Source: Hyphomicrobiales bacterium
GTDB taxonomy: Bacteria > Pseudomonadota > Alphaproteobacteria > Rhizobiales > Rhizobiaceae
Direction: 5' to 3'
NCBI GenBank assembly: GCA_021775415.1
Contig: JAJFHV010000002.1
Location: 1-64,000 of the forward strand
Length of the DNA stretch: 64,000 nucleotides
Part shown: positions 911-54,250 of the stretch, one piece after another
Position numbering within the stretch: the stretch's first letter is position 1
How the letters are laid out: the number at the start of each line of letters is the position of its first letter
Position numbers and translations under genes: made by a program
Notes under the pieces: model-generated
Database searches by the model: none
What the model was told of the DNA's origin: nothing
Seen by the model: only the letters and a program-made list of their open reading frames with translations

Positions 911-965
911 TTGATCGCTGAATGTCCGCTTTGGGTCATTAGCGGACATAACGCGATCCTTATTT

Positions 966-1790: not shown

Positions 1791-1792
1791 CC

Positions 1793-4164: not shown

Positions 4165-4209
4165 TGGCTGGGGATCCTGGATTCGAACCAGGACCAACGG
4201 AGTCAGAGT
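4165..4209. repeat. Left attachment repeat (tRNA-Gln 3' end fragment)
   Basis: 45 bases identical to 54206-54250. It begins tggctggggatcctgg and ends gtcagagt, which is the CCA end, acceptor strand, T arm and anticodon stem of tRNA-Gln on the minus strand. Identity stops exactly after gagt: here tttcgg follows, in the tRNA ccgtc. It is a displaced fragment, not a functional tRNA. Confidence 0.95.
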
Positions 4210-4330: not shown

Positions 4331-4350
4331 GCGTGCCTAATGCGTGCCTA
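4331..4350. promoter_or_regulatory. Tandem arm-type integrase site, left
   Basis: GCGTGCCTA occurs at 4331-4339 and 4342-4350, spaced 11 bases (one helical turn), 122 bases inside the left repeat. The same tandem pair, with one changed linker base, is at 54151-54170 inside the right end, in the same orientation. This is the layout expected for arm-binding sites of a tyrosine integrase. The second unit ends 2 bases before the integrase ATG, so binding could also affect integrase expression. Confidence 0.65.
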
Positions 4351-4352
4351 AG

Positions 4353-5495
4353 ATGCCCAAAATCTTGATGACAGATATTACGGTTCGCTCCCTTCCTATC
4401 CCGCCAAAAGGGCAGGTTACCTACTGGGATCAAAAAATGCCTGGATTTGGTTGTCGTGTCTCCCAGGGTGGCCAAAAGACATTTGTGGTGATGCATGGTC
4501 CACGCGAAGCACGGGCTCGCAAGATTGTTGGCAAATATCCAATTCAGAGCCTTAAAATTGCCCGTGAAGAAGCAAAGAAAAAATTGGCAGGTGTGGCACT
4601 TGGAATTATTCAGCAGCCCGTTAGAGGAGCAATTCAGTTTGTTGAAGCACGCGACCGCTACCTTGAGCATGCCCGGTTGACCACGCGTCCGCGTACCGCA
4701 GCATGTTATGAGCGGTTGCTCAAAAAGCATTTTCCGTTTGGTAAGAAAAAGATCACTGAAATTACGAAACAGGATTTGCAATATTGTTTAGCCAAGCTCC
4801 ACCATGTGCCCTCTGAACAGGCCCATGCTAAAACCGCAGCTCGCATTTTCTTCAACTGGGTCTATCGGGAAGAATTGATTGATCGCAATCCTGCCGATCG
4901 ATTGCCCAGGATGAAAAAGCGACCACCCCGTGAACGCGTCCTGAGCGAATTGGAAGCAGGCGAAGTCTATAAAAAAGCACAAAAATTCAAGTGGCCGTAT
5001 GGGCCGATTGTTCAACTATGTCTTCTTATGGGGCAACGGCCGGGTGAAGTTGGTGCGCTCGAATGGGAGTGGATCAATTTAGAAGAACTCATAATCACTT
5101 TACCTGGTGAACGCGTAAAAAATGGGCGAACTCATAAATTTCCAATTGGTGATGTCGCGGTCGATCTCTTGAAGAATTTGCCTAGAATTGACGAATACGT
5201 TTTTTCTGGCCGAAACAAAGCCAATGCGACGTTCAATGGTTGGGCGAAATCAAAACGAGAGTTCGATGCTACGCTGCAAAATGTTGCACCCTACACGCTG
5301 CATGACTTGCGACGAACCTTCAGTACGTTTCACGCAAAGCTTGGCACGCCAATTCATGTTACGGAGCGTCTACTCAATCATGTCTCAGGATCGATTTCTG
5401 GTGTGGCGGCCATTTACAACCGGCATACTTATTTGCCGGAAATGCGCGATGCTGTTGAAAAATATGAGGATCATTTAAGTTCAATTCTCCGCTGA
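4353..5495 (+). CDS. Tyrosine integrase of the tRNA-Gln island
   Basis: About 380 residues. An N-terminal arm-binding domain of the DUF4102 type (about 1-85) has YWDQKMPGFGCRVSQGG. A SAM-like core-binding domain follows (about 95-185), then the catalytic domain. Catalytic signatures are visible: Arg in GQRPGEVGALEW, His-x-x-Arg in LHDLRRTF, and the Tyr nucleophile in AAIYNRHTY near residue 360. It would catalyse integration and excision at the 45-bp tRNA-Gln repeat. A GTG at 4344 inside the arm motif and an ATG at 4368 are alternative starts; none has a good ribosome site. It is apparently monocistronic. Confidence 0.93.
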   Translation: MPKILMTDITVRSLPIPPKGQVTYWDQKMPGFGCRVSQGGQKTFVVMHGPREARARKIVGKYPIQSLKIAREEAKKKLAGVALGIIQQPVRGAIQFVEARDRYLEHARLTTRPRTAACYERLLKKHFPFGKKKITEITKQDLQYCLAKLHHVPSEQAHAKTAARIFFNWVYREELIDRNPADRLPRMKKRPPRERVLSELEAGEVYKKAQKFKWPYGPIVQLCLLMGQRPGEVGALEWEWINLEELIITLPGERVKNGRTHKFPIGDVAVDLLKNLPRIDEYVFSGRNKANATFNGWAKSKREFDATLQNVAPYTLHDLRRTFSTFHAKLGTPIHVTERLLNHVSGSISGVAAIYNRHTYLPEMRDAVEKYEDHLSSILR

Positions 5496-5720: not shown

Positions 5721-5743
5721 CGCTGTAAGAAAGGAATTGCCAA

Positions 5744-11383: not shown

Positions 11384-11429
11384 CAATTAAACCGATTTGA
11401 TCAAAAGCAAAGAAATAATGGGAGGAACT

Positions 11430-14184: not shown

Positions 14185-14241
14185 CGCCCCAAAGAGGTTG
14201 GAGAATACTTTTAAACCAGCATAAAATTGAGGAGATACCAG

Positions 14242-19333: not shown

Positions 19334-21367
19334 TTGGGTAAATGGGTGCGACAATTCATTTGGTTGTTGAGTATATGTTATTTGCTGCTGTTACCGATGT
19401 TGATCGTCAGCTGTGCAAAGAACAATTCTAATGTGAAAATCGCACAGCCGCGAGCTACAACATCGCCAAAGCACGATAGTATAAAAACTACAACCCAAAA
19501 GCCGCATAAACCAATTGTAAATGTGGAAAATAATGATGCCGCCACGGACGGTGCTTTTTTCCCTGAAAAAAGGATTCAGCGAAGACGTCCTTACTGGAAT
19601 GTGTGGTTTGAAGATAAAAACAAAATTGTCCGGCAGAGCGAATTGCAGACAGGCAAAAATTACAAATTTGTGCTCGATCTATCTGCCTACGATTTTTCTG
19701 ATCTGTTTATCAATTACATTTCAGCTGCGGAAGCTCAACGACAATTAGTTGATCAAATTTCAAATGCCAAAGGACGAGTGGCTATTAAATTAAGGCCTTT
19801 TACCAGCGGTGCCTTTGGAAAGTCGACACAATATGGAGATATTGATGTCGTCATTGATCCAAGCAAATTTTCCAAAGTTCGTGAAGACGAGAAAGAGTAT
19901 CATGAGCTTGCCCAACTGGGTATTATGGATCAGCGAAAATTTGCGGAGAAAGTGCGTGCTGCATGGGTGCTTCCGACCAATTTGGAAAAAAATTCACAAC
20001 GTGATCCGGTATCAGTTATTTTAAAGACGTCGTTGGATCCTGGATGTGCAGCAGTAGGTTTTTCGGTTTGGGATGAAACAGGATCAATACCGCTTGATCA
20101 TGTAGTGTATCGAACATTTGTGGGAGAGCGTGGTTCCTCATTGGATGGATGTCTAACGGATAGTTCCACCGCAGTTTTCGAAGCTGGTTTCAGCACACTC
20201 ATAACAGCAAATCTCAATCATTTAGACGGTAACACGAAATTAGTTGATGGTGGATTACACTTCTTTGAATTTGCAGTTACGCCCAAAGAAATTGTGTCGA
20301 TCGTTGTATTTGCTGACGCACGAAACCCAGAATCTGTCGAAACCTATAGCTGGAGAACAGATGTTCCGTTAAGCAAATTCTTTGATGTTGAGATGCCCGA
20401 TCTAATCGCAGAGGCACAGATTGAAGCAGCCAAGGAAAATCAAAATGCTTATGAGTACCTGGCTGGGCGATTACGCGACCGAATTTTTTTCGATGTAGAA
20501 TATTCGGAGAGCCCTGAAGCAGCCAGGGCGTGGGAAATCTTGCAAGAGTTTGCCGTAACTGGTCGTTCAATAAAGACTCGTTTGGTGAATGGGACTGGAG
20601 ACACATTGTATGCGCCGCTTGGTCTACTCCATGCCGGTGGCGATAATAGCCCACTAAAAGGACGCCTTTCGATTGTGCAGGCGCTTCCTCACGAAAATCA
20701 CCTACCAAGCAATAGTTGCATAAGAGAATGGTCTTACATGCTTCCGGTTGCGGAAAGTGCTGAAAGCGAGTGGAGCGTGATGCAAGATGTAAATCGTAAC
20801 AAACCTGAATCTGGGTGGCTCAGAAATGTGTTTGGGTTTGTAGACGATGATCTTCGCCAATACTTGCGGCATCAATTAGGAAAATTCGAAATGGAAGAAA
20901 CTGAACCTGAAGGGCTTCTGGCAGTGACACATCAATCAAAAGGCACCTTTTGGTTTGACAAAATGAGTAGAAAGTTTCTCTCGGAAGACATAAAGCGCCC
21001 TTATCAACATGGTAGCGCAGCAATTTTGGCAACTTGTGAAGCAGCTGGAACAGATTATGAAAATCGGAGGGCGCTAAAACGCTTTAATGCACAGGGGATG
21101 GACCTAATTATCGCAGCTCCATTTCAGGTATTACTTGGCTATGGTGCAAAGTTAGCCAAAAAAATGGATGGAATAATTCGTGAAACTAACGAAGAATTAG
21201 ACCCAAATCTTGATAGACGCATAGTCACGTTGTTTGAAAAAGCCGCCCAACAAGTGGCGATGGAAGATCCCACTCGTCAATTTGATGACATGCGGCACGA
21301 ATTTGTTGTGCTTGGTAATCCAGAGATTAAGCTTTGCCTTCCTGATAAAGTGAGAGAAATTCCATGA
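19334..21367 (+). CDS. CHAT-domain (caspase-like) lipoprotein
   Basis: 677 residues. The N-terminus is a lipoprotein signal with lipobox IVSC near residue 27. A long central region of beta-rich character follows. The C-terminal 260 residues look like a CHAT peptidase: LYAPLGLLHAGG, then catalytic His533 in AVTHQSKGTF, Cys568 in AILATCEAAGT, and the closing FVVLGNPEIKL. It would therefore be a membrane-tethered, extracytoplasmic cysteine protease, unusual for CHAT proteins, which are mostly cytoplasmic. TTG start (or GTG 19346). The stop overlaps the phosphoesterase start. It heads an operon of exported enzymes. Confidence 0.75.
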   Translation: MGKWVRQFIWLLSICYLLLLPMLIVSCAKNNSNVKIAQPRATTSPKHDSIKTTTQKPHKPIVNVENNDAATDGAFFPEKRIQRRRPYWNVWFEDKNKIVRQSELQTGKNYKFVLDLSAYDFSDLFINYISAAEAQRQLVDQISNAKGRVAIKLRPFTSGAFGKSTQYGDIDVVIDPSKFSKVREDEKEYHELAQLGIMDQRKFAEKVRAAWVLPTNLEKNSQRDPVSVILKTSLDPGCAAVGFSVWDETGSIPLDHVVYRTFVGERGSSLDGCLTDSSTAVFEAGFSTLITANLNHLDGNTKLVDGGLHFFEFAVTPKEIVSIVVFADARNPESVETYSWRTDVPLSKFFDVEMPDLIAEAQIEAAKENQNAYEYLAGRLRDRIFFDVEYSESPEAARAWEILQEFAVTGRSIKTRLVNGTGDTLYAPLGLLHAGGDNSPLKGRLSIVQALPHENHLPSNSCIREWSYMLPVAESAESEWSVMQDVNRNKPESGWLRNVFGFVDDDLRQYLRHQLGKFEMEETEPEGLLAVTHQSKGTFWFDKMSRKFLSEDIKRPYQHGSAAILATCEAAGTDYENRRALKRFNAQGMDLIIAAPFQVLLGYGAKLAKKMDGIIRETNEELDPNLDRRIVTLFEKAAQQVAMEDPTRQFDDMRHEFVVLGNPEIKLCLPDKVREIP

Positions 21368-22968
21368 TAAATTTTATACATTGCTACCACCGGTATTTCT
21401 TGGTTTTTTGCAGCTGGATCTTTTTGCTCGGTACGGAGGTTATGGCGGATTCACGTTTTAAGGCACCAACCAGCCTCGAGACTCGCTATCTCGTTGTCAT
21501 AAGTGACTTACACATGGGTCTCGGAAAAATTAATGGCGAATGGCACCCTTATGAAGATTTTCGATGGCCAGGCGCATTGAATGCGTTTTTGCACAAAATA
21601 TCAGAACTCGGTAACGAGCATGTGGATTTGGTTATAGCAGGCGATTTTCTTGAGTTGTGGCAATATCCCGCGGATGTTGCCTGTCAGGGAGATGGCCCCA
21701 ATTTAGGCTGCACTATCAATGAAGTTGAGCGCATTGCGCAGCGCGTGGTGAAGGCACACTCTGGAACCAGTGATGGAATTCCAAAAGCCTTTGATTCACT
21801 CGCAGCGTTTAGTCAACGAGGTGAAAATCGATTGCACATAGTGCCTGGAAATCACGATGCAGCAATTCTAGTTCCCCAAGTTTGGGCAATTGTCGCCAAT
21901 GCACTCCAAGCCGATCGTGGTCGAATTCGACTTGTTGGAAAAGACAGTTTGGGCGTATGGAACTCGATTGATGGCCGTGTGGTGATAGAGCATGGACAAC
22001 AGATGGGTGCAGATTTAAATCGCTATGACAATTGGCCGGAAGTTGTACCGAAAAGTGGAGAACGAATGGTGCGTGTCGAAGGAGAGCTTAACGTGCAGAA
22101 GCTCTTCAATAGCGTGGAAAGGGAATATCCGATTATCGATAACTTGAGTCCCGAAGTGGCCGGGGCATGGTATCGCGCGCAAGATAGGGGAATTTCAGGC
22201 AGTATCGCAGATATAGCCAAACTCGCGTACTTCATGCTTTTTGAAACTTCGTTTGAGCACAAAGTTGACGTTTTGGGGGGCGGGCCTACGCTCCAAAACG
22301 GCAGTATCCAATGGGATCTGCAATACGCTCGCAACGAACTTGGTTACAAGCTTTTTGTATTTTCTCTACCAAGCGATGACAAGCTTAGAAAGTTATTGAC
22401 AGAGGAGTCGAACAGCGACCTAGCCAAAAAGATTGTGGCAGAATTTAATGCATTAATACAGCAGTTAAGCGATGATGAATTAAAACATTTGTGCGACCAA
22501 CTAGCGTTGCAAGCCGACAAAGCGAGGTGTTGGGCCCCGAAAGGGGGGGCGGTTTTAGAGGCCCTTGTCAAGTCCCGTCATCGGATAAAACGCAATCACC
22601 TTAAACTGCGAAAGAAGACTTATCCTAAAATGAACACGTTCATTTATGGTCACACACACCAACTTGAACAGGGTCACGATATTAAGCTCAGTGACTTCGA
22701 AGTCGTTACAGTTTTTAATTCTGGAGCGTTTCAACGGGTAATGGATGATGAAAATTATCGACGTCGTCTAAAACTGGCATATCCTCAGGTCTCTACGTCT
22801 GAAGGGTTGAAAGAGCTGGATCTCAACAAAGACTTCAGACCTTGCTACACAGCAGTTTTAGGAAAGCTCGAAGGCAACAAATACAATCTTAGAACGAAAC
22901 GTTGGTATATGGCTGAACATGAAAAAGGAAAATTCATCGATGTGGGGAGCCCTTTGTGCAATTGGTAA
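21364..22968 (+). CDS. Exported metallophosphoesterase
   Basis: 534 residues. The N-terminal signal peptide (about 1-28) precedes the calcineurin-type metal motifs: VISDLHMGLG, AGDFLELW, VPGNHDAA and IYGHTHQLEQG. A helical insert lies between the third and last motif (about 240-410). Substrate is unknown; related enzymes hydrolyse phosphomonoesters, phosphodiesters or UDP-diacylglucosamine. ATGA overlap with the CHAT gene argues for a stoichiometric partner. A 525-base gap follows before the next gene. Confidence 0.88.
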   Translation: MINFIHCYHRYFLVFCSWIFLLGTEVMADSRFKAPTSLETRYLVVISDLHMGLGKINGEWHPYEDFRWPGALNAFLHKISELGNEHVDLVIAGDFLELWQYPADVACQGDGPNLGCTINEVERIAQRVVKAHSGTSDGIPKAFDSLAAFSQRGENRLHIVPGNHDAAILVPQVWAIVANALQADRGRIRLVGKDSLGVWNSIDGRVVIEHGQQMGADLNRYDNWPEVVPKSGERMVRVEGELNVQKLFNSVEREYPIIDNLSPEVAGAWYRAQDRGISGSIADIAKLAYFMLFETSFEHKVDVLGGGPTLQNGSIQWDLQYARNELGYKLFVFSLPSDDKLRKLLTEESNSDLAKKIVAEFNALIQQLSDDELKHLCDQLALQADKARCWAPKGGAVLEALVKSRHRIKRNHLKLRKKTYPKMNTFIYGHTHQLEQGHDIKLSDFEVVTVFNSGAFQRVMDDENYRRRLKLAYPQVSTSEGLKELDLNKDFRPCYTAVLGKLEGNKYNLRTKRWYMAEHEKGKFIDVGSPLCNW

Positions 22969-23493
22969 CAGGCAAGCTTTGGGATGCTTGGGATTTGCGA
23001 TAATTGTCTGGTGTGTGTGGAATTCAGACTTTTAGACCTAAGTATTTTCGCGCCAATTTACTCGCAGGGGTCGTTTGGGCTCATTCGCGTAAAAACAGAC
23101 TTGGCTTAGACAAAAATCTTGGGGTGGGAACATGCGTATTTGATTAATTCAATTTGGGTGAACTTTCCCTCACGCGTTTTGAACTAAACGCCTTCCAACA
23201 ATTGCGCAAAGTCGGTTTGTCCACACGACGTTTTTCAATATTGTCCATGGAAATCAAAGTTCACTGGGAAATACAATTGACAATTTCGAACAATCGTAGG
23301 TTAATGAAAATTCTGCAGATAGAGCAACTGCATTTATTGTTTGTTTCTGGCGACGTTAGACTGGAAATTCCCAATAATATCCGCTGCTTCGCTAGAAAAA
23401 GTAGTTAAGCGCTTGTTGGACGACGATGAATTCATTCAAGCCTGAGTACTGAAGCTATCCCGCGGCCTGCACTCTAGATAACTATCAGCGTAA
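22969..23493. other. Gene-poor gap in the protease cluster
   Basis: 525 bases without a convincing gene. Short open frames near 23154-23408 have no ribosome site or family pattern. A stretch ending about 23443 could read as a degraded C-terminus in another frame. The promoter of the next gene probably lies here. Confidence 0.5.
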
Positions 23494-24273
23494 ATGACAA
23501 AAATGTTGAAATACAAACCTGCAACAAACTTCCAACTTGTATTTTTCGTTTTTTTGACTGGTGTTTTTTTTCTGATAAATCCACGTGTTCAAGCGCAATT
23601 TATGGGTCCAGAAGCTTATATCGATAGAGAAGGAGTATGGAAAAGCAAATTTATTGCTGTTTGTTGGGAACAAAAGCCCGATAAATACATCGACCAAAGG
23701 AGATTTGTAAGAGAGGCTGTTGCTACGTACATTGGGAGTGAGGGTGGAAACTCGAAGTATATTTTTTTGGAAACTGAGGAAGGAGTGTGGCCAGAATGCA
23801 ACAAAGACAACCATGTCCCCGGAATTTGGATTAAGATTCGGGACATTACCCCGCGAAGTCAAGTCGGTCGACAATATGTGCGCGACGCTGCCGGGAACAA
23901 GTTGAAACTAAAAGGCGAGCCTCAGTCATTACCCACCAGAATGATATTGAACTTTGAGTTTGAGCAAACAGTTAGTGTAAAAAACCTGTGTTTTAGGAGC
24001 GGTTTGAATCTAAAGGAATGTATTGAAGTTGTGGCGGTACACGAGTTTCTTCATGCTTTGTCATTCTTGCACGAACAATTGCGAAGCGATGCTGATCCTG
24101 AATGTAAAGAGCTATGGGAAAGAAAGAGGGATGTAATTGGTTATGATCCAGATTTTGCTGAAACAGATTATGATCCTGATTCGATTATGAACTATTGTGG
24201 AGATATATATAAATCTCCAATACAGTTGAGTAATACAGATAAACATATGCTGATCAAGATAATGGAATTCTGA
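23494..24273 (+). CDS. Secreted astacin-like zinc metalloprotease
   Basis: 259 residues with a signal peptide (about 1-36). HEFLHALSFLHE (His183, Glu184, His187, His193) is the metzincin zinc motif in the M12A/astacin form HExxHxxxFxHE. The following SIMNYCGD is a Met-turn-like element, and several Cys could form disulfides. No prodomain is obvious. It probably degrades or matures proteins outside the cytoplasm, perhaps neighbouring cluster members. It is followed after 16 bases by a serine protease gene. Confidence 0.85.
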   Translation: MTKMLKYKPATNFQLVFFVFLTGVFFLINPRVQAQFMGPEAYIDREGVWKSKFIAVCWEQKPDKYIDQRRFVREAVATYIGSEGGNSKYIFLETEEGVWPECNKDNHVPGIWIKIRDITPRSQVGRQYVRDAAGNKLKLKGEPQSLPTRMILNFEFEQTVSVKNLCFRSGLNLKECIEVVAVHEFLHALSFLHEQLRSDADPECKELWERKRDVIGYDPDFAETDYDPDSIMNYCGDIYKSPIQLSNTDKHMLIKIMEF

Positions 24274-24289
24274 TTGGGGGGACTTTATC

Positions 24290-25792
24290 ATGCGAAATGG
24301 CGAATTTTCATTGATTGGTTTTAAGAATAGTTTCCTATCAAATTTTTTTCTATACCTATCTAGCCTCAGCTTGTGGTTTGCTGCTTTTTCCACAAATGTC
24401 TTTGCGAAAGACCCTCAACATGTTTGGACAGATGATCGACTAAAGTCGGTTGTTCGAATTGAACTTAAAGTTAACAAACAAACCCTAACCGGAACTGGGG
24501 TTATTGTTACCAGCAGCAAAAAAGACGGAAAGGGCCACAATTTTCAGTACATAATTACAAGCCGCCATGTGGTGCAAATAATTAAAGATGCAGGGAATAA
24601 TCTCCGTGACCCTCATCCAACAAATTGCGAAAAGGATCTTGATGAGGAAGCTTTAAAAATTTATGAGGGGCAAAGTGGCGACGGTGAGATTACGATTGAG
24701 TGTGTGATTTTTCCGACAAAAGATATCGCCCTTATAAGAGTGGATAAGAGGGACAAAGAGCCTTATCCAGCACTCGACATAATCGCATGTGCTCCTCGTG
24801 AAGGGGTGCGTCTCTACATTGCCGGATTCGCTCTTTCCGGCTACAGAGATATTTATCGTCATGGGATTGTCACCAGTTATACCCCAGAAAACGTTATTGT
24901 TGATGTGCCAACCGCTGGCGGTATGAGTGGTGGTGCGTATTTAACTCATGAAGGACATTTAGTAGGCATTCATCAAGGAGCTGAAACAGGGAAACAGAAT
25001 TTTGCCTATATGAAACCTTTGGGTGAAAACATGTTGGATGACCTATCGAAAACGTTTGATATTAACGGTGACAAAAATGCGACGTGTAGCACACCTCCCA
25101 GTGCATTCAAAAAAATAACGGACATGGATGAAGATGTAAGTGGAAAATTCACAAACGTTGCTAGAATTTTCAAGAAAAACTTGGATGATTTGAAAGACGA
25201 AAAGCAAATTGAGGAATTGGCCAAGTTAGTTTCTGCAATCGGTGAGATACAAAATTACATTGAAAAAATCCGACTGTTACCACCTCAAATTGAAGTTTCA
25301 GATCAGCTAATAATTAGAAGAAATGGCGAGGGGATAAAGAAAATTGGCCAATGGAATTTTTTAGTTAATGCCTACTACCGAGGTCCCCAAGAAAACAAAG
25401 ACGCGGACGACTTGGCTTTGTTTGCGTGTTTTAACGTGATTTTTAAAGATGCTCTCACAGAAGACGGGGCCAAGTTGCAAGATATTCACTTTTGTAAGTG
25501 GGACAATGAAAGCAAGCGAGAAATATCACCAGCTGATGCTGCAACTACACATGTGTTTGATGTTCCATCAAAAACAACACGAAAGTACCTGAGCAAATAT
25601 GGGGCAGACTTTACAGGGTATAAGTTTGTAATTGGTAAGAAGGAACCTGATGGCAATCCGGACAAGAAATTTGACAAAATGGACCTCGGGACAGAGGGTT
25701 ACGAAGCACTTTCACGCGGAGAACTGCGTTTTAAAACCGACGCAGAGACAAAAAAAATCTTAAGTGAGATTGTGAAAGGAACGCAGGGTTGA
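24290..25792 (+). CDS. Secreted trypsin-like serine protease
   Basis: 500 residues. Signal peptide about 1-40. Trypsin_2 domain about 50-260 with a visible triad: His93 in TSRHVVQ, Asp145 in KDIALIRVD and Ser213 in GGMSGGAYL. The C-terminal 240 residues have a helical part followed by a beta-rich part with no known family. A ggggga ribosome site precedes ATG. The stop overlaps the next gene (TTGA). It is likely part of an extracytoplasmic proteolytic system with the metalloprotease and CHAT protein. Confidence 0.88.
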   Translation: MRNGEFSLIGFKNSFLSNFFLYLSSLSLWFAAFSTNVFAKDPQHVWTDDRLKSVVRIELKVNKQTLTGTGVIVTSSKKDGKGHNFQYIITSRHVVQIIKDAGNNLRDPHPTNCEKDLDEEALKIYEGQSGDGEITIECVIFPTKDIALIRVDKRDKEPYPALDIIACAPREGVRLYIAGFALSGYRDIYRHGIVTSYTPENVIVDVPTAGGMSGGAYLTHEGHLVGIHQGAETGKQNFAYMKPLGENMLDDLSKTFDINGDKNATCSTPPSAFKKITDMDEDVSGKFTNVARIFKKNLDDLKDEKQIEELAKLVSAIGEIQNYIEKIRLLPPQIEVSDQLIIRRNGEGIKKIGQWNFLVNAYYRGPQENKDADDLALFACFNVIFKDALTEDGAKLQDIHFCKWDNESKREISPADAATTHVFDVPSKTTRKYLSKYGADFTGYKFVIGKKEPDGNPDKKFDKMDLGTEGYEALSRGELRFKTDAETKKILSEIVKGTQG

Positions 25793-27231
25793 GAAAGGTT
25801 GTAAATTTTCTAAGCACCTTTGTATTGTTGTCCAATATTTTGGCGGCAGGTACAGCGTATGCTGAGTCGGGTGGGGTATCTGAAAATTTGCAAAAGCAGG
25901 TTGGGTGGGAGTTTATTCAAACGAAAACCACACCAACAGCGATTGCATTTGAAGGAACGTCTGGCCAATTAGTTGTTGCAAGCAATGGATTAATTGAATT
26001 TTATCGTGTCTTTCCAATCCCCGTCAGGGAATCTTTTATTGAAGTTTTAAATTTTCACCCCACGAACATATTTGTAGACTCGGAAAACAATGTTTTTGTC
26101 GTCGGAACGAGCGAGGAAGACGAAGGTCGGCTCTTAGTTTTTAGTAGGGAAAATGGAGATTCCGATTGGCAGGTAAGCGCCGATGTAGTTATTGGCGATG
26201 ACTTTTATGAGCCTTCTATTTTTGTCAGCCAGACGTTGGATGTATTCATATCCACCCTTTCCGAAAGTTACGTGTACACAACGTCCAAAAATGAAATCAC
26301 GACAGGAGCGGATGGCAAATCCCGCAATTGGGATTTCGTACGCTTGAAATGTGGGAGACCGATGGGAGTTGGTGTAATTGCGAAAAATCTTGTGGTTACA
26401 ACCCCACTGGGTGGTGGAGTAGTGGAAGTAAGCAATATCTCGATTGATGAGCAATCTGAGTCTAGTTTCGATCCTGAATGCAAATCCACAATTGGTGTCC
26501 AAAATGTTTTTAGTATTAATTCAGATAAAAAAGTTAAAAGCACCTTGGGACAAACAATAGCTACATTGGAAACAGCTGACTCAACATCTCAAAAACTGTT
26601 TATTGCAATTCTGGAATCGGATTCCCTGCTTGCAACTGAATTTATCATTACCTCAACTGGCGAAATTGCTCAGGTTGCAACAGACGCTTTAAGACTAATG
26701 CTGAATGACAATTTTTTGGATTTCTTTGCAAATGCGAAGCAACATTGGAATGTGGGAGATGATAGCGGTGATATTGATGTTGCTGCGAACAAAACTGGCG
26801 AGTTAATTGCAGTTGGTAGCAGATGGATAAATGCACTCAGTGTATTTTCCTATGATGAGAGAAAACTTAAGTTTTCTTCGAAGCATAGCCTGCCCTTTGG
26901 GGTTTCTAAGGTGGCTTTGAACGCAAAGGGCGATATGGCTGCAGTCATTCAAACTCAGCAGCCACAAAGTACAGGATCGAAAATTCTGTTGATCAAAAAC
27001 CCTTCAATTAGCCCCGGTGATTTCGGCGGTAGGGTTAAATCCGTAGCAACGGATTACGTACAAAAGTTTCTAAATAGATTGGGATTTGATTCCGGCATTG
27101 AAGATGGCGTGTTTGGGAGTAACACATCCGAAGCAATCAAAAGATTTCAGGAAAGTAAAAATTTGGTGGCTACCGGAGAGTTGGACGAGGATACTAAAAA
27201 CCTAATCAACAAACTATCTGATGAATTTTGA
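25789..27231 (+). CDS. Exported propeller-like protein with C-terminal peptidoglycan-binding domain
   Basis: 480 residues. Signal peptide about 1-25 (ends AAGTAYA). Residues 40-410 contain repeated strand patterns resembling a beta-propeller, such as TAIAFEGTSGQLVVASNG. The last 60 residues form a peptidoglycan-binding domain of the PG_binding_1 type: VQKFLNRLGFDSGIEDGVFG, then EAIKRFQESKNLVATGELDE. It could anchor the protease complex to the cell wall and offer a protein-binding surface. TTG start overlaps the preceding stop. A weak terminator hairpin lies at its end. Confidence 0.75.
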   Translation: MRKVVNFLSTFVLLSNILAAGTAYAESGGVSENLQKQVGWEFIQTKTTPTAIAFEGTSGQLVVASNGLIEFYRVFPIPVRESFIEVLNFHPTNIFVDSENNVFVVGTSEEDEGRLLVFSRENGDSDWQVSADVVIGDDFYEPSIFVSQTLDVFISTLSESYVYTTSKNEITTGADGKSRNWDFVRLKCGRPMGVGVIAKNLVVTTPLGGGVVEVSNISIDEQSESSFDPECKSTIGVQNVFSINSDKKVKSTLGQTIATLETADSTSQKLFIAILESDSLLATEFIITSTGEIAQVATDALRLMLNDNFLDFFANAKQHWNVGDDSGDIDVAANKTGELIAVGSRWINALSVFSYDERKLKFSSKHSLPFGVSKVALNAKGDMAAVIQTQQPQSTGSKILLIKNPSISPGDFGGRVKSVATDYVQKFLNRLGFDSGIEDGVFGSNTSEAIKRFQESKNLVATGELDEDTKNLINKLSDEF

Positions 27232-27242
27232 TAGGTTTTTTT
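27196..27242 (+). terminator. Putative terminator of the plus-strand protease operon
   Basis: AAAAACCTAATC near 27196 can pair imperfectly with GATAGGTTTTT at 27229-27240, ending in a T7 run. It overlaps the 3' end of the propeller gene and lies between the two convergent operons. Confidence 0.45.
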
Positions 27243-27322
27243 GTTGTATTTATTGACAGAAAACATTGTTTGGCATTGCATTGAGTGTATCACGCAGCGC
27301 CAGTAAATTCTGATGGTATTGC

Positions 27323-28552
27323 CTACGGGAACTGAGCGGGCTCGAAAGAAAACTGAAAACCAACATTCATAGTTTCCAACCAATCAAGCACTGGTTTGGT
27401 ACCTACTGCGGTGTAAAGCCCTCCTCCACCACATTTCCCATTGAACTGATGCTTCACACCGGCTAGTCCCCTGGATGTTATACCAATCAGACTTTTTGAT
27501 GGGATTTGTTCAAAGGAGCTCTCAGAGTTTACAATAATTTTGCCTTCAACAAGATACACCGGGCCTCCACTGTCCCCGCCACAGGTATCAGTAGATTTTC
27601 CCGTACCCGTTACCGGTGCACTCATCAAAACAAATTCTCGGAACATCGCGCAAACTGATCGAAATGCATAGCCCAGCCTGCAGTATCTAGACACTACAAA
27701 TACAGAACCAATCAATACTGAATCGGGAAGTTGATTGTTCTCGTCAAAACCAAATCCTGCGATTACCAGTGTGTTTATTCGTTTGTCCGATAAGATTTCC
27801 ATTGAAGATTTTATTTGTGGAGTCCAAATCACATCCGTGACATGTGCCGGGGATATAGAATTTGCGCTCTCTAAATCACTTTGAATCGCAGGCATTTGAA
27901 ACCGAAACAAAGCTAAATCTTTACCGGCTTGTGTATGCAGTGCTTTACCGCATTCAAATCCTGGAAAAAGATGCGGCTTAGATAAGTTTTGCACCAAAAT
28001 GAATTCTGAAGTTTTTGCGTTTGATGTTTTTAGTTCAACTGTGTACCCAAATCCACAACCGCAATGTGCCGCTGTTAATACGGCATCTGGTGATATTGCG
28101 ACACCAGTGCACAGGTCCTTTTTGCCAAACTGATTTGTAAACTTTATACGTACAACGTCATTAAAAAAACTTCCAAGAGCCGGACTTCCGTCAACTATCG
28201 TTGCAAAACCACCTTCACTGTTCAGTGAGCCGAGCCGTTGTTTGATGATTTCTGTTGGGTCATCCGTTCCATCGACTATTTCCGCAGATCCACCTCTTGT
28301 ATTTCTGCTATTTTTTTGTTGTTCGATGAATTCCGCACAAATTGTGCTTTCTTTAAGAACATTATTGGCTTGCAGATAATCCTGTAAATTCAACTCATTG
28401 AAATCTATGGTAAGTTTTCTTTGCTCCTGATCGCATTCGACAGCGTCCTCACTGTACGCAATCTCTGGAGTAACAAACAATGCGGCCAATGCCAAAATGA
28501 AACAACATAAACAGTTTTTAGCCATCATCAGCTTTTCACAACATCGAACCAT
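27323..28552 (-). CDS. Secreted trypsin-like (S1) serine protease
   Basis: About 409 residues. A hydrophobic signal ends near TPEIAYSED. A prodomain-like region (about 25-115) precedes the S1 domain with VLTAAHCGCG (His), KDLALFRF (Asp) and CGGDSGGPVYLV (Ser). Several Cys pairs fit chymotrypsin-fold disulfides. An ATG at 28552 directly follows the upstream gene's stop (one base between), and 28528 is a second candidate. The frame continues upstream inside the preceding lipoprotein gene but that part is not protein-like. It is the last gene of the minus-strand operon and is the second trypsin in the cluster. Confidence 0.88.
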   Translation of the reverse strand: MVRCCEKLMMAKNCLCCFILALAALFVTPEIAYSEDAVECDQEQRKLTIDFNELNLQDYLQANNVLKESTICAEFIEQQKNSRNTRGGSAEIVDGTDDPTEIIKQRLGSLNSEGGFATIVDGSPALGSFFNDVVRIKFTNQFGKKDLCTGVAISPDAVLTAAHCGCGFGYTVELKTSNAKTSEFILVQNLSKPHLFPGFECGKALHTQAGKDLALFRFQMPAIQSDLESANSISPAHVTDVIWTPQIKSSMEILSDKRINTLVIAGFGFDENNQLPDSVLIGSVFVVSRYCRLGYAFRSVCAMFREFVLMSAPVTGTGKSTDTCGGDSGGPVYLVEGKIIVNSESSFEQIPSKSLIGITSRGLAGVKHQFNGKCGGGGLYTAVGTKPVLDWLETMNVGFQFSFEPAQFP

Positions 28553-28553
28553 G

Positions 28554-30026
28554 TCAATTCGCCAATACCTCATTGCAACGGTCCTCCGCAGTGGCGGGAT
28601 TCTGCAATACTGCATTTTGCAAGCACGCCTCAAAAGAAAGTTCAGAAGTCGAACGACCTGTTGAATTTCGTAAACCCGGCACTCCACCTCGGTTGGCAAT
28701 GTTGAGTTGATCAGCGGGTGATAAACCTGCCAAAAGGTCGCTTTGGGTAGTTTGCTGCTCTTCAAACCCCTCGAGCGTTTCAATCATTTGCTGGTTGACG
28801 TTGACGAGTGCCTGTTGATTTTCGGCTTGAGTTTGAGCAAGCGTCAGGGCGCGTACAGGAATTTCAACCAACACTTGAATTGCACGCACTGGAATTCTGA
28901 CAAAAGCTTCCCATTCGCTTTTTTTGTCCACAAAAACCTCTTGCAACATACCGTTTTTGAATTTTATATCGGTCTTTCGGTCGGTAAAAATTGCGCGTTT
29001 TACTTCGAGCATAAACGGCGGGGCAGCGTTGGGCATTTTTACGCGTTGAGCCGAGTGAATTTTCCAAGGCAAACTCGATTCTGGATCCCGTTTACGCATT
29101 ACTATCAATGTGTGAGTCAAGAGCGGCTTGTATAGGATGCCATTTTGCAATCGTTTTGTTACTTCTTTTGAATCGTTGACGATGGACATTCCGCTGTAAG
29201 ATTTTCCTGTTTTACTCGGGTGTTCCGGCTGGCCTTTACACTGCTCATCCATCCACGTTGGCACAAACTTGTCCCGGTTACGCTTTAGATAAACACAGTA
29301 ACCAAATGGTCTCAATGCATTGTTGACTTCGGTAATCTCGCCGTACTCAAAAGGATCAAACTCAAACTCGGCTACCCTAACGGTTTGATTTTCCGGAGTC
29401 GCATTATCAAAAGTACTGCGCCCACCGGCCCCTGGTCCCAGTGATGCCGCCAGTAATCCACCAGCTTCAATCAATTTTTCAGCAATTGTAACCGATTGAT
29501 CTCTAACGTTGCTGAACACCCGTTCCAGCAACTGATGATTATTGCGCCGTATATTAATATGATCGGCTGCAAATATGTTTGAGAGATAATCAAGGCAATA
29601 CTGGTGACGTCTGTCAGCCACCGTTCGAACGAGATTTTCGGCAAGTTTTTTATTGGGATCAGTACCTGTCGTTTCTTCTTCACCATCGGATTTTCTGTAT
29701 CCGTGTGAAATATCATAGGTGTAAGTGTCAGCGGCAAATTTCTTGTCGACCCGGACCGTGATCAAACTTTTTGGTAGATAATATGCACCGGTGCTACTCT
29801 TGCAGGTTTCAGGTTTGCGTTTACGTGCAAGTTTGTGTTTATCGTTGTTTTTGCCGCCTTTGTTCATTTTGGGCGATTCTTTGTGATAATCTGGTAGGGC
29901 AACAGTTTTGAAAACAGAATTGCACCCTGCTAATGCGATGGCCATTAGGACATTCACTACCAACAAACTTCCAAGTTTGAATGATGCTCGATCAGGTTTT
30001 GAGTATCGAAGGGTTTCAGAGATCAT
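28554..30026 (-). CDS. Lipoprotein of unknown function, paralogue A
   Basis: 490 residues. The lipoprotein signal ends with the lipobox IALAGC near residue 34. It shares layout with the adjacent protein encoded at 30031-31548: an early Cys, the pattern YCLDYLS versus YCLNFLE, a VAEFEFDPFEYGEI versus VAKIEFDPFDPDDI segment, and a helical Gln-rich stretch after about 395. No known family is recognised. It is four bases from the upstream gene and one base from the downstream protease, so part of one operon. It is probably a periplasm-facing scaffold or receptor. Confidence 0.75.
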   Translation of the reverse strand: MISETLRYSKPDRASFKLGSLLVVNVLMAIALAGCNSVFKTVALPDYHKESPKMNKGGKNNDKHKLARKRKPETCKSSTGAYYLPKSLITVRVDKKFAADTYTYDISHGYRKSDGEEETTGTDPNKKLAENLVRTVADRRHQYCLDYLSNIFAADHINIRRNNHQLLERVFSNVRDQSVTIAEKLIEAGGLLAASLGPGAGGRSTFDNATPENQTVRVAEFEFDPFEYGEITEVNNALRPFGYCVYLKRNRDKFVPTWMDEQCKGQPEHPSKTGKSYSGMSIVNDSKEVTKRLQNGILYKPLLTHTLIVMRKRDPESSLPWKIHSAQRVKMPNAAPPFMLEVKRAIFTDRKTDIKFKNGMLQEVFVDKKSEWEAFVRIPVRAIQVLVEIPVRALTLAQTQAENQQALVNVNQQMIETLEGFEEQQTTQSDLLAGLSPADQLNIANRGGVPGLRNSTGRSTSELSFEACLQNAVLQNPATAEDRCNEVLAN

Positions 30027-30030
30027 CGAC

Positions 30031-31548
30031 CTAGCTACCCAAATTGGATTTTTGCAGTCGGTTGCAAAAATTATCTAGATTTTTTTCGGCTGTATCATTA
30101 GCTGCATTTGCCGTGAGCAGATCTAAATCGGGTGACGAAATTACTGAAAGATCATTGCCGTCTTTGTCCTTGGTTTGTGGCCTCCCAAATGACGCTCCGC
30201 CAGTTGTTTGACTGATGGTTTTGGCAGTAAGATTTGCGCCGCTATCAGGCACTTTGTGATCGGCTTTATTTTCCTCTGTCAAATATTTGATGTATCGGTT
30301 CTGGACTCCGAGCAAATCGGATTGGGCTTTTAGCAACTTCTGCTTGCCTGATGCCAGATCAACTTGCGCCTTAATTGTGTTTCCCGGCAGCGCCACAATC
30401 CCGTATATAATTTCCAGTGGTACCTCTAGTGCACCAGCGACTTCGCTACCCTTTAGCATGCAGTAGTCAATTAGATTCCCATTATCGAACGCGAGAATGA
30501 GCCGTTTTTCGGCAAACGCAGCGCGATTTACGCCGAGTGAAAGTACTGGCGATAAATTTTCTGATGAAATATAGGCAGTTTTGCGCAACTGCCAGGCGCC
30601 AGGGTAACCTGGATCGTCCTTCACATATACGTTGAGAGGATAGTCCTGCCGCGGTCTGTAATAGATGCCCTTTGGTAACTGCTTAACCAGAAATCCCTGC
30701 TTTTTGGCATTTCTCAAGTAGCGAGAATAATACTGTTCCCCATCGGCCAAACTAGGGTTGTTACAATAGCGTTGTGCAGAAAGCTCGGTGGAGTGGTACG
30801 TGTATTCCCGCAATGTAATACAAACCCCATATTCCTCCAAACGTCGATTTACCATCAGAATGTCATCAGGATCGAACGGATCAAATTCGATTTTTGCTAC
30901 TGTAAGTGGGACTGCCCCTGCCTCACCCAATTGTGCAGATCGTCCCGGGTCAAGATTCGAGTTTCCAGAAAGCAACGTAAACAACGCTCGGACTATTTTG
31001 CGTAATATCACCCCTGTTTGATCAATGTTTCGAGATATCACTGATGCCAGCAAGCCATTTGGTTCTGCGTTTTTTCTAGCAGCTAGAAATTCGGCGCCGG
31101 TTCCCGTCGTGCCATCAGATTTCGTAAAATTTGCCAATTGCGCGTCTGTTCCAAACTGCACATTCACCACATCTCTCGCCGCTCCTGACTCAAGGAAATT
31201 CAAGCAATAGATATGGTCGTTGTCGGGATAATGATTGGAACTTGTCAGGTTAACAGTTGGGCTGCCAGTAGGTACATTCTTAATTTTGGTTTCGCCGCCA
31301 CCCGTCGTAAAAAACTGCTTCACCTCGATAGTAACTGTAGAGTAAGCAAGCGAATATGATCCTAGTCCAGAGGTGCATTTCTGTGAAAATTTGCCGCTTT
31401 TGAGTTTTTCGAACTCCTGGGTTGAACTAACCACATTACAGCCGGAAAGCGTGCAGATGGTAAAAATGGTCATGAGCAAAGACCGCAGCAGGTTGTGCCT
31501 CGACTTAAGGTACTCCACCCACAAAACAATTGGGCCTTCCACCGACAT
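30031..31548 (-). CDS. Lipoprotein of unknown function, paralogue B
   Basis: About 505 residues. Lipobox CTLSGC follows a hydrophobic signal. It shares the core pattern with the neighbouring paralogue A, including IEFDPFDPDDILMVNRRLEE and FGYCV/YGVCI-like strands, followed by a helical C-terminus. The start at 31548 sits right after the upstream stop (31551-31553); an earlier in-frame TTG would overlap it. The function is unknown. The pair probably arose by duplication within the cluster. Confidence 0.75.
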   Translation of the reverse strand: MSVEGPIVLWVEYLKSRHNLLRSLLMTIFTICTLSGCNVVSSTQEFEKLKSGKFSQKCTSGLGSYSLAYSTVTIEVKQFFTTGGGETKIKNVPTGSPTVNLTSSNHYPDNDHIYCLNFLESGAARDVVNVQFGTDAQLANFTKSDGTTGTGAEFLAARKNAEPNGLLASVISRNIDQTGVILRKIVRALFTLLSGNSNLDPGRSAQLGEAGAVPLTVAKIEFDPFDPDDILMVNRRLEEYGVCITLREYTYHSTELSAQRYCNNPSLADGEQYYSRYLRNAKKQGFLVKQLPKGIYYRPRQDYPLNVYVKDDPGYPGAWQLRKTAYISSENLSPVLSLGVNRAAFAEKRLILAFDNGNLIDYCMLKGSEVAGALEVPLEIIYGIVALPGNTIKAQVDLASGKQKLLKAQSDLLGVQNRYIKYLTEENKADHKVPDSGANLTAKTISQTTGGASFGRPQTKDKDGNDLSVISSPDLDLLTANAANDTAEKNLDNFCNRLQKSNLGS

Positions 31549-31550
31549 AA

Positions 31551-33269
31551 TCAATTTCCTGGACAAACAATTTGCCCGCCTTGACGTAAGAGAGCGTACT
31601 GCACGTCACCGAATTCTTCGGTCATCGATTTGGCTTCAATTGAGCCAACGACGATTGGGTCATTTTCAAAGTTTTTGGTATGATCTCGTAGGCATTGATA
31701 GAATACATGAACACCGCGATGTCTTGGATCTGCGGTTGGTGCTGGGTTAAACCCACAAAGGCGCGATTGATACCCTGCGGGAAGTACTTGATTACCGACG
31801 GTGGCGTCAGAAAAGTCACATTCGCCCTTTCGATCGCAAGCAACACGCGTGGCCATGGTTGCATCACACCAGCGTTTTGAATTTCGGTGTTTATGGTAGG
31901 TGTCAACAACCTTATGGACGCACTCCTCACGGTAGAGCAGTCCATTGATATCGAGGCAGTCGGAGTAGGATTTACCGTAGGTATCCCCAACTGTCGCTTC
32001 AAGAATACGAATCTTGAGGGCTTCTTTAGCTTGAAGCGTTTGGATATCGGTGACCAATTCCTCCAACGCGTTGGGTAACTTGCTCTGCACTTTCCCAAAC
32101 TGCATACCCAGATGCGCAAGATCACCCGTATTCATCTTTTCCAATGCTTCTTCAAGCGCGCTGGCGTACTGGGCAATACCGTCAAGACTCCCGGTTTCGA
32201 CAATGGGATTTTTAATAGGAGTTTTGTCCTTTTTCTTGCCCTCCTTGCTGGCCAGAGTCAGATTCAAGAGTACGGTTTGCATGACACGCAAGAATTTGAT
32301 GCCTGCTTGGCGGGGTGTTTCGTCGAGTGAAACCGGCGTGCTAAGCGAGGTGGGGACGTCGTCATCCGGCAAGAACGTCGATTCCTCATTAGCAACAAAT
32401 TTTCTCAATGATTCAGTCGCGGCATTGGTTTCTTGTTCAAGAAGTTTCGTGGCATTTGCCTTTCGAAGTTCAGTGGAAACTTCCTCCAGAAGTCCTGTTG
32501 TCGCCAACCAAAGTAACCCGCCATGGTCCGGAGATTGTTCGAATTCCTCTTTAATCAGCGGTACAAAGTCATCCGCAGACAAAGTGGCTTTTACCAACGT
32601 GATTTGTTGAAGAAGTGTGTCGGCACTATCCGATGCATCGCCGACCAAATTACTGCGAAATTTGGTAATCGCATTCTCAAGTGACGCGAGATCATCTATG
32701 GTGACTTTATCTGCATTATTTTTGATTGCCGCGTTGATTTTCGATAGCTCATCATCCTCAAGCATCAATTGAATGTTTGCGAGCATTTTGTCTTTTAAAA
32801 ATTTTGCTGGTTTGTCTTCTAATTTGAGAGTGCCTTTTGGTGTCTTTTTTCTGTATCTGATATCTAATATCGCATTATGAATTTTGTCTATTTTGCCAAT
32901 AATATCAGCTCTTTTACTCTTCGCGCTTTTATCTATTTCTTGTAAATTTACCAATTCATTAGAAAAATAATCAATGGTACTTTTTTCACCTTTTGTTATT
33001 TTCGCAGTATCCCCAGAATTACCTAAATCAAATATTTCTTTATCGATTCTTTTAATTTCCTTAGTTAGGCTTTCTATTTCTACGCCAATGGTTTTAAAAG
33101 CTTTGGAAACGTTATCTATACTAGACTTTATATTTTCTAAATTCTCCGCATTCAGGTTGCTATTTACCTCTTGGGCCATTGCCACATTGGCTAACATCAT
33201 AAACGTGAAAGGCAGAGAAATGAGAACCTGAGCCAAGCAGCGGTAATTAATTCGAAAATTCCAATCCAT
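31551..33269 (-). CDS. Exported coiled-coil protein with Cys-rich C-terminus
   Basis: 572 residues. Signal peptide about 1-32 (ends NVAMAQ). Residues 35-130 form a strong coiled coil (Lys/Glu/Ile heptads). The middle is helical. The last 130 residues contain about nine Cys (SDCLD, REECVH, RWCDA, ACDRKGECDFS, LCGF, YQCLRDH, IVCPG), likely a disulfide-stabilised domain. No family is recognised. It is the first gene of the minus-strand operon, so the promoter lies in the 33270-33900 gap. The role may be assembly or surface recognition. Confidence 0.75.
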   Translation of the reverse strand: MDWNFRINYRCLAQVLISLPFTFMMLANVAMAQEVNSNLNAENLENIKSSIDNVSKAFKTIGVEIESLTKEIKRIDKEIFDLGNSGDTAKITKGEKSTIDYFSNELVNLQEIDKSAKSKRADIIGKIDKIHNAILDIRYRKKTPKGTLKLEDKPAKFLKDKMLANIQLMLEDDELSKINAAIKNNADKVTIDDLASLENAITKFRSNLVGDASDSADTLLQQITLVKATLSADDFVPLIKEEFEQSPDHGGLLWLATTGLLEEVSTELRKANATKLLEQETNAATESLRKFVANEESTFLPDDDVPTSLSTPVSLDETPRQAGIKFLRVMQTVLLNLTLASKEGKKKDKTPIKNPIVETGSLDGIAQYASALEEALEKMNTGDLAHLGMQFGKVQSKLPNALEELVTDIQTLQAKEALKIRILEATVGDTYGKSYSDCLDINGLLYREECVHKVVDTYHKHRNSKRWCDATMATRVACDRKGECDFSDATVGNQVLPAGYQSRLCGFNPAPTADPRHRGVHVFYQCLRDHTKNFENDPIVVGSIEAKSMTEEFGDVQYALLRQGGQIVCPGN

Positions 33270-34723: not shown

Positions 34724-34969
34724 ATGCAAACGCATCCGCTAATGCAAGCCAGACTCGCTCTTATCAAGCCCCTCACTGCTGTGCGGCTTAACCGTCGACA
34801 ACTGGGATTAATCCCTGGAGCACGCTGGCTACTGGACGAGGGGCTCCGTGCTGCTCTGCAGGGAAACATTGATCCTTGTAAATCGTATGCAAATTCCCAA
34901 CGAGCTAACGCTGAACATCGTAAATCGGTTCCTCATCATCGAGTGTCAAATCATTTAATTGGCGGTTGA
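34724..34969 (+). CDS. Possible small basic protein
   Basis: 81 residues, Arg/Leu/Ala-rich (ARLALIKPLTAVRLNRRQL). It begins 7 bases after the replication-relaxation gene and its last 65 bases overlap the 3' end of the opposite-strand cytochrome gene. No family is recognised and no clear ribosome site is present. It may be real because of position, or chance. Confidence 0.3.
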   Translation: MQTHPLMQARLALIKPLTAVRLNRRQLGLIPGARWLLDEGLRAALQGNIDPCKSYANSQRANAEHRKSVPHHRVSNHLIGG

Positions 34970-39759: not shown

Positions 39760-39921
39760 ATGAAACCAGAAATTCCACCAGAACTGGAGCGCTATCTGGC
39801 GCTTTGCCAACGCATCTATGAACGCATGGAACGTGACGGTACCTGGCCATGGCCGGATGAGCCGGACTCGCCAGATTCTCCAGATGTGATAGATTCAGAG
39901 GATAACCCCAATGATTTATGA
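39760..39921 (+). CDS. Small acidic protein coupled to the serine recombinase
   Basis: 53 residues: a helix KPEIPPELERYLALCQRIYE followed by a Trp/Pro motif and an Asp/Ser/Pro-rich acidic tail. It is too short for most gene callers, but its stop overlaps the recombinase start (ATGA at 39918), a strong sign of a real, co-translated gene. The acidic tail suggests a DNA-mimic or recombination directionality factor (inference). No clear ribosome site is seen. Confidence 0.6.
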   Translation: MKPEIPPELERYLALCQRIYERMERDGTWPWPDEPDSPDSPDVIDSEDNPNDL

Positions 39922-43005: not shown

Positions 43006-43086
43006 CCTCACATCATACTCCAAATAATGGCCCTGACTATCTTCAGGTATGCCATAAAACTTTGATGTGAAAAGACCGTCCCATTA

Positions 43087-44689: not shown

Positions 44690-44869
44690 AATCCTGTGAA
44701 TCCGTGATCATTGGCCAAACCCTCGGCAGGTTACCCACTAAAGAAATTCGGCATCCTCCCTGCTGATATTCCCAAAGTACGTGATCTAGTATACCTCGGT
44801 AACTATCAGATTCTCGTAAAGTTGATGATAGACGGCGCCTTGAATAATTCGGTTCTCATCTCAATGTGA
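44686..44869 (+). pseudogene. Deleted copy of the 46567 ATPase gene
   Basis: The 5' part reads MKSCESVIIGQTLGRLPTK, matching the start of the ATPase at 46567 (MKYEKHQPVIIGQTRGRHPR). The 3' part, from 44762, reads ADIPKVRDLVYLGNYQ, then KLMIDG, matching its end (ADIPELRDLVNLGNYE...RLMIDG). About 1 kb between them is missing and the two parts are out of frame. The remnant stop overlaps the next gene's GTG. Confidence 0.8.
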
Positions 44870-54205: not shown

Positions 54206-54250
54206 TGGCTGGGGATCCTGGATTCGAACCAGGACCAACGGAGTCAGAGT
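54206..54250. repeat. Right attachment repeat within tRNA-Gln
   Basis: 45 bases identical to 4165-4209. It covers the 3' end of the intact tRNA up to the anticodon loop, the usual crossover region for tRNA-targeting integrases. The tRNA stays whole because the repeat restores its 3' end. Confidence 0.95.

Follow-up and report, generated by a model that had tools for sequence, protein, structure and literature searches.

A 64,000-nucleotide stretch of a Hyphomicrobiales bacterium genome (GCA_021775415.1, contig JAJFHV010000002.1, positions 1 to 64,000; hereafter the window) carries a cluster of nine long open reading frames (ORFs) in convergent arrangement, five on the plus strand (19334-27231) and four on the minus strand (33269-27323), with a gap of 91 bases between the two sets (Table 1). 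The four minus-strand genes encode an exported cysteine-rich protein with a coiled-coil-like part (CC), two lipoproteins (LPA and LPB) and an S1 trypsin-like protease, and form a core that is real, rare and patchily distributed within the genomes searched: the order CC-LPA-LPB-S1 is collinear in six loci, namely the window, three Rhizobium loci and the genomes G1038 and G967. The proteases accompanying this core differ between loci, and the recurring feature is the class of partner, not the individual partner gene. We read the cluster as a mobile, envelope-located zymogen protease module used in defence or conflict, an interpretation that we regard as possible though still short of probable. 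An initial annotation of this DNA had proposed two convergent operons of exported proteins acting as an outward-facing protease cascade; to this we add the constancy of the core beside changing partners, the zymogen sites and an integrative island enclosing the cluster.

A search with LPA of 72,556 plasmid records returned two, Rhizobium johnstonii pRlX4 (CP140805.1, L002) and R. leguminosarum bv. trifolii WSM1325 pR132503 (NC_012853.1, L003), each at 39% identity. In both, genes for CC, LPA, LPB and an S1 peptidase are followed, on the same strand, by genes for a caspase family protein and a serine protease, in an order that the two plasmids share, and BLAST paired each of their CC, LPA, LPB and S1 proteins with window genes. 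The third Rhizobium locus belongs to Rhizobium sp. R634 (NZ_LOKW01000029.1, L004), and further full cores were recovered from G1038 (L020) and G967 (L022/L023). Lipoprotein matches occurred in four of 394 genomes of the family, the window's own genome included, and comprised three full cores and one lipoprotein-S1 pair (G1114); at class level four of 385 genomes matched, the own genome and three with lipoproteins but without CC in the stretches examined. The cysteine domain of CC was detected in the own genome only among 398 genomes of the phylum, and neither the core in viral contigs nor CC in phages was found. The scan of genome contigs used two strict peptide patterns, with one locus confirmed from 88 stretches, and therefore undercounts core loci. 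Across the five homologous loci, identity to the window is 29-36% for CC, 38-52% for LPA, 34-52% for LPB and 34-39% for S1. When the longest ORFs are taken, core genes overlap or lie at most 11 bases apart in all six loci; the likely start of the window S1 gene (ATG at 28528 or 28525) lies inside the listed ORF, and with this start the gene begins 25-28 bases past LPB.

CC, LPA and LPB are three orphan protein families. A Pfam family was matched above cut-off by five of the nine cluster proteins, the exceptions being these three and the CHAT-like protein discussed below. LPA had no match in Pfam, PADLOC, NCBIfam or PHROG, nor in the PDB when a four-row profile was used, and its four-row AlphaFold2 model reached a pLDDT of 41. 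As the initial annotation had recognised, LPB is a paralogue of LPA (24.6% identity, 3e-26 by BLAST); lipoboxes are present in both. Its description of CC as a coiled-coil, Cys-rich protein is borne out for residues 41-135, where heptad periodicity was equalled by only 5 of 2000 shuffles, and for the six cysteines, which have similar spacings in 6/6 homologues, but not for residues 161-300, which lack heptad periodicity (470 of 2000 shuffles equally strong). The C-terminal domain of CC shares 38-40% identity with three Rhizobium proteins. To score export, we applied a home-made rule (not SignalP) that recognises signal peptides and lipoboxes, with 34 genes hand-picked from the window ORF lists as controls. 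An export signal was present at the listed start of 8/9 cluster proteins versus 3/34 other window genes, and with later starts permitted in 9/9 versus 6/34. By this rule all nine cluster proteins can be predicted to be extracytoplasmic, in agreement with the original claim that each of these nine genes encodes an exported or lipid-anchored product.

In four of the six core loci (the three Rhizobium loci and G1038), S1 is followed on the same strand by an exported caspase of family C14 and a second trypsin. The C14 assignment comes from Pfam in three loci (1.9e-14, 3.2e-11 and 1.5e-15) and from 62-63% identity in the fourth, and these proteins themselves supplied the profiles used to assign the second trypsins and C14 proteins. 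G1038 further encodes an exported protein of 1085 amino acids (L020:4812-8069) with a true CHAT domain (Pfam 7.9e-51), making it the sole core locus with a certain CHAT protein. The core of G967 has a tail of different composition, made up of a subtilase, a protein whose only match is a weak one to a metallopeptidase (M36, 0.076) and, as last gene, a metallo-beta-lactamase (MBL)-fold protein. In the window, the partner set would correspond to the convergent plus-strand genes. Upstream of the L004 core, positions 1-6061 hold a row of genes divergent from it, whose products are a caspase-like protein (judged by eye), an alpha/beta-hydrolase-like protein, a phosphatase-fold protein, an astacin-like protein that stays under the Pfam cut-off (3.3e-4) and an M6 peptidase. 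Further M6, S8 and S53 peptidases are encoded near the Rhizobium core loci.

In G123 (L025, contig C12, 4853-11987), the neighbours of a lipoprotein gene encode a trypsin, a Trypsin_2 protein and a 1090-aa protein that combines WD40 and caspase C14 parts, each probably carrying a signal peptide; this stretch is perhaps a related module without CC. Other plasmid C14 proteins (136 records) were considered as members of the system and rejected, since core profiles matched none of the four neighbourhoods examined (one of them unannotated).

An alignment of 12 trypsins, including the core S1 proteins and the second trypsins, showed the catalytic triad and an Asp six residues before the Ser in all six core S1 proteins; we take this residue to be Asp189 in chymotrypsin numbering, indicative of a trypsin-type pocket. 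In all six, an I/V-x-[ND]-G site is also set apart from the signal peptide by an intervening stretch, and from these sequence features the core trypsins look like zymogens. At P1 of this site L002, L003, L004 and G1038 carry Arg, the window carries Thr, G967 Leu and the lipoprotein-S1 pair of G1114 Glu. Arg is thus found in 4/4 loci with C14 versus 0/3 loci without it (one-sided Fisher 0.029), although three of the four Arg loci are close Rhizobium relatives, which reduces the independent evidence to about two versus three. The second trypsins have Lys at P1 in 4/4 cases. In a Rhizobium locus the two sites read R/VANG in S1 and K/IING in the second trypsin. Prokaryotic caspase homologues are reported to cleave after positively charged residues (PMC6426788). 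The Thr at P1 in the window means that a non-tryptic starter would be needed there, presumably one of the plus-strand proteases.

The whole cluster is enclosed by a 50-kb integrative island (4165-54250), as indicated by 45-bp repeats, a tRNA-Gln gene and an adjoining integrase (Table 1). A large serine recombinase (2305-3960) lies just beyond the left repeat. DNA of the LPA-CC region was not found in 11 other genomes of the genus (only three of which reach 90% completeness). In 10 of these 11 the genes lying right of the island have matches, and G850 retains the tRNA close to them. No clean empty site was obtained, the left-flank DNA being a repeated family. The L002 and L003 plasmids were typed conjugative, and the window island encodes two coupling-protein-like ATPases (17011 and 46567). 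Neighbours with defence signatures, scanned in three of the six loci, include Hma and OLD-like proteins (L002), Cas1 and Cas9 (L020), and OLD/AriA-like and capP-like proteins (window island). In L020 (G1038:C338), the Cas1 and Cas9 genes (407-4515; HNH_4, RuvC_III and Cas9_a) are directly downstream of the exported CHAT gene.

From the conservation of the core, the differing partners, the export signals, the active-site motifs, the zymogen-type sites and the island, all of them features of sequence, we infer a function, the formation of a complex, the order of a cascade, its trigger and a role in defence or conflict. LPA, LPB and the Cys-rich, coiled-coil-like CC would probably constitute a lipid-anchored sensor or scaffold that keeps S1 an inactive zymogen. 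Beside them would stand an exchangeable protease set: C14 with a second trypsin, CHAT, or in the window the CHAT-like, astacin-like, Trypsin_2, phosphoesterase and propeller-like proteins. Upon a trigger at the envelope, a partner protease would cleave S1 at its activation site, and active S1, from whose pocket Asp a preference for Arg or Lys is expected, would in turn cleave further substrates, among them the second trypsin where present. In C14 loci the Arg site of S1 could be cleaved by the caspase or by S1, whereas at the Thr site of the window a non-tryptic partner would initiate. The resulting burst of proteolysis would harm either the invader or the own cell. A stronger form of this proposal, by analogy a mobile, wholly extracytoplasmic bacterial counterpart of complement or Toll-type serine-protease cascades in which lipid-anchored sensors (LPA, LPB and CC) release the S1 zymogen and lineages exchange the initiator or executioner (caspase, CHAT or the astacin/Trypsin_2 set) together with a matching cleavage residue, seems to us doubtful. 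Published protease-switched bacterial immune systems compared here work intracellularly; if the module acts as proposed, a proteolytic cascade would operate at the envelope, the first site of phage adsorption, DNA entry and contact with rivals. The lipoprotein core would be its fixed part and the caspase-fold partners its exchangeable one, with trypsin-type zymogens alongside; in four of the six loci and in the window, all of these are predicted to be exported.

The outward-facing cascade suggested at the outset gains from the recurrence of the core, from C14 and trypsin partners in 4/6 loci, from CHAT in one of them and from the zymogen-like trypsins, but its presumed CHAT protease in the window could not be verified. 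The first plus-strand protein (19334) had been identified as CHAT with H533 and C568 as active-site residues. Pfam CHAT (PF12770) was matched neither by the whole protein at E<1 nor by its C-terminal part at E<5, the protein was not significant when this model was run against the own genome, and PADLOC, NCBIfam and PHROG models and a C14 profile returned nothing significant. A home-made CHAT profile of 11 domains (ten, one of them partial, from six same-family genomes and one from G1038) gave no significant match to it in an unfiltered hmmsearch. Aligned to the same profile with hhalign, the CHAT-like stretch scored 18.4, with 3 of 100 shuffles higher and the alignment placed on the Cys568 box; a single-sequence AlphaFold2 model of the C-terminal part (pLDDT 36) offered no support for the fold. 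H533 and C568 are located as claimed and in fitting motif order, and a pattern of these motifs, written post hoc, matches 0/5000 shuffles and 0/50 other proteins, yet just 4/11 known CHAT domains. Because the assignment follows from motif order and lacks profile or fold support, we name the protein CHAT-like. Nor are exported caspase and CHAT proteins unusual, such proteins being mentioned in papers of 2012 and 2020.

The remaining plus-strand assignments fared better, Pfam supporting the phosphoesterase, the astacin-like protease, the peptidoglycan-binding domain and, with the minus-strand S1, both trypsins, while the beta-propeller repeat is weak and remained under the Pfam cut-off (SBBP 0.0069). 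In the astacin-like protein (Pfam 26.2 bits, cut-off 22.5), the zinc site HEFLHALSFLHE has Ser replacing the Gly of HExxHxxGxxHE and is accompanied by a SIMNY Met-turn; we take this zinc site together with a Met-turn to be the astacin (M12A) consensus. The convergence of the two gene sets stands, but the five plus-strand genes are not clearly one operon owing to a 525-base spacing between the phosphoesterase and astacin genes. Relatives of the CHAT-like protein were found in none of 189 other class genomes, 296 other family genomes, the plasmids and the viral contigs, and relatives of the phosphoesterase and the Trypsin_2 protein were absent from the plasmids. The propeller-like protein matched one plasmid record, via its peptidoglycan-binding end only, and the astacin gene was not searched on its own. 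The expectation that both operons would be found together in other genomes is therefore only half borne out, the minus-strand operon recurring but no relative of the CHAT-like gene having been found in the genomes and records searched.

Several observations weigh against a protease module of the kind we favour. Since no relatives of the plus-strand genes were found, only their position next to the core, in a single genome, ties them to it. Lipoproteins occur without CC in stretches of G123, G124 and G225, and as a pair with S1 in G1114. Auto-activation of S1 would account for the Arg at P1 just as well, and the second trypsin of G1038 reads VISS instead of an IxNG-type site. The tail proteins of G967 have no signal peptide, judged by eye from a hydrophobicity list, and for this reason may not act with the core; the MBL protein of this tail was dropped as proof of a nuclease output on the same ground. 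Two of four window-island proteins scanned for defence (43258 and 44866) matched nothing, and OLD-type models are matched unspecifically by AAA ATPases. PADLOC 2.0.0 returned no match for LPA and LPB and weak ones for CC (LmuB 0.0057 and DruC 0.1 in the window; LmuB 0.001 in G1038).

The first of these points would be accounted for if two unrelated operons had become adjacent by chance in the island, the core alone being a unit and the plus-strand set separate cargo, as might be expected of operons that are convergent and not co-transcribed and of a set without relatives except at the peptidoglycan-binding end of the propeller-like protein. This seems unlikely given that an exported C14 protein and a trypsin follow S1 on the same strand in 4/6 loci, that the window set again consists of exported proteases and that the G123 lipoprotein adjoins WD40-C14 and Trypsin_2 proteins. 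Alternatively, the genes could be nutritional or saprophytic exoenzymes, a mobile accessory set in which envelope proteases would break down external protein and a phosphoesterase external phosphate esters. The export of all products, the presence of several protease classes with a phosphoesterase, the location on accessory DNA and the M6, S8 and S53 peptidases near the Rhizobium loci would all suit such a role. We nevertheless judge it improbable, as the order of S1 and three core proteins that belong to no known enzyme family is maintained in six loci, the anchors to lipid and peptidoglycan argue against release, the P1 residue of the zymogen-type site varies with the partner, and no transporter genes lie within the core operons. 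Similarly improbable is a maturation or quality-control machine for a surface structure or for conjugation, in which the lipoproteins would hold a substrate, for example mating-pair or exclusion proteins, for S1 and its partners. Two loci on plasmids typed conjugative and the two coupling-protein-like ATPases of the window island are consistent with this. Against it, no additional gene common to the six loci was noticed as a substrate (the comparison was not systematic), mating-pair genes are not annotated in the L002 and L003 stretches, and partner proteases that vary by locus fit poorly with one fixed substrate.

The proposed defence or conflict module resembles known protease-switched immune systems, yet misses a defining feature of each one tested. 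Comparisons here refer to the accessible parts of the cited papers. Protease-switched immune systems including caspase-activated nucleases have been published (PMC12799240). The protease-gated nuclease pairs and canu systems described there share the activation of a proenzyme by a trypsin-like or caspase protease, the swapping of modules and the location in defence islands, but their target is a nuclease and the accessible text does not mention export, whereas the window encodes exported proteases and no nuclease among the nine. Likewise, no MBL nuclease adjoining a protease is among the nine, the nearest LmuA-like MBL gene being 3.3 kb off at 36552. Its product (36552-38174) and the G967 MBL protein match PADLOC LmuA and RTasMBL models. 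The window protein is MBL-fold-like with a THYDEDH motif and no Pfam match (PADLOC LmuA 1.6e-9, PDC-M48B 7.2e-9), and is possibly a protease-gated nuclease encoded in the same island as the exported proteases.

System 3, the NucA-trypsin system (PMC7159879), resembles the module in being mostly alphaproteobacterial, in having several proteases per operon and variable coupled effectors, and in its proposed proteolytic cascade. It differs in its NucA-type nuclease, since no endonuclease family, NucA-type included, was detected among the nine proteins (Pfam E<1), and the module has a conserved lipoprotein and coiled-coil-like core. Exported metacaspases have been described as abundant in rhizobia, with likely signal peptides, a suggested action at the cell surface and WSM1325 among the strains named (PMC3501461); the accessible part of that paper does not describe a lipoprotein core, differing partners or zymogen sites. 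It does report a conserved protease operon in four Rhizobium strains, which may or may not be the L003 operon. One paper mentions secreted CHAT proteins of marine cyanobacteria (PMC7522525). Craspase likewise employs a CHAT protease (TPR-CHAT), within a CRISPR system, but as part of an RNA-guided Cas7-11 complex, and the window protein has no verifiable CHAT match. Insect Toll and melanisation cascades also consist of extracellular serine proteases acting in series, an analogy in which the S1 fold alone is common. Neither the lipoprotein core nor an exported cascade was found described in the open-licence literature under the terms used.

Table 1. Genes of the protease cluster and boundary features of the island in the window
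Feature	Coordinates	Strand	Evidence
CHAT-like lipoprotein, candidate caspase-fold protease (H533, C568), assignment unconfirmed	19334..21367	+	lipobox IVSC (C27), motif order
Exported calcineurin-like phosphoesterase	21364..22968	+	Pfam Metallophos 4e-7; SDLH, GNHD, GHTH motifs
Exported astacin-like metalloprotease	23494..24273	+	Pfam Astacin 7.5e-6; HEFLHALSFLHE zinc site
Exported Trypsin_2-type protease	24290..25792	+	Pfam Trypsin_2 1e-13; PADLOC LmuA 5e-10; His, Asp, Ser motifs
Exported propeller-like protein, C-terminal peptidoglycan-binding domain	25789..27231	+	Pfam PG_binding_1 5.8e-15
S1 trypsin-like protease, core gene 4, zymogen-type site AT/IVDG	27323..28783	-	Pfam Trypsin 4.4e-12
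LPB lipoprotein, LPA paralogue, core gene 3	28554..30026	-	lipobox LAGC; Pfam matches below cut-off only
LPA lipoprotein, orphan family, core gene 2	30031..31566	-	lipobox LSGC
CC exported protein, coiled-coil-like N-terminal part, six-Cys C-terminal domain, core gene 1	31551..33269	-	signal peptide by rule
att-like copy of tRNA-Gln end, island left end	4165..4209	.	45-bp perfect direct repeat
att-like copy within tRNA-Gln(CTG) 54206-54279, island right end	54206..54250	.	45-bp perfect direct repeat
Tyrosine integrase adjoining left att-like copy	4344..5495	+	Pfam Phage_integrase 1.7e-13

Other genes of the window island were noted in passing. An exported CxxCH protein is encoded at 34905-36230, with relatives in 28 plasmid records, mostly of rhizobia and one of them annotated as cytochrome P460 family; core proteins were absent from the one plasmid neighbourhood of these relatives that was examined. 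We considered whether the CxxCH proteins exported from genes close to the core (window 34905, L002 and L004) are homologous parts of the system, and rejected this at an hhalign value of 1.3%. A 104-nt repeat occurs between 41324 and 46514, with copies at 41324, 43077, 44530 and 46411 (73-84% identical to the first) that separate single genes, namely the OLD/AriA-like gene (41467-43023), 43258-44454, 44866-46365 and a coupling-protein-like gene (46567-47724). As the first copy falls in the 3' end of a serine recombinase gene (39918-41480), the array looks like gene cassettes serially inserted there. The same island also encodes a subtilase (14227-15744; family S8, weakly matching pro-kumamolisin) and a tyrosinase-like protein (11397-13028, named by eye).

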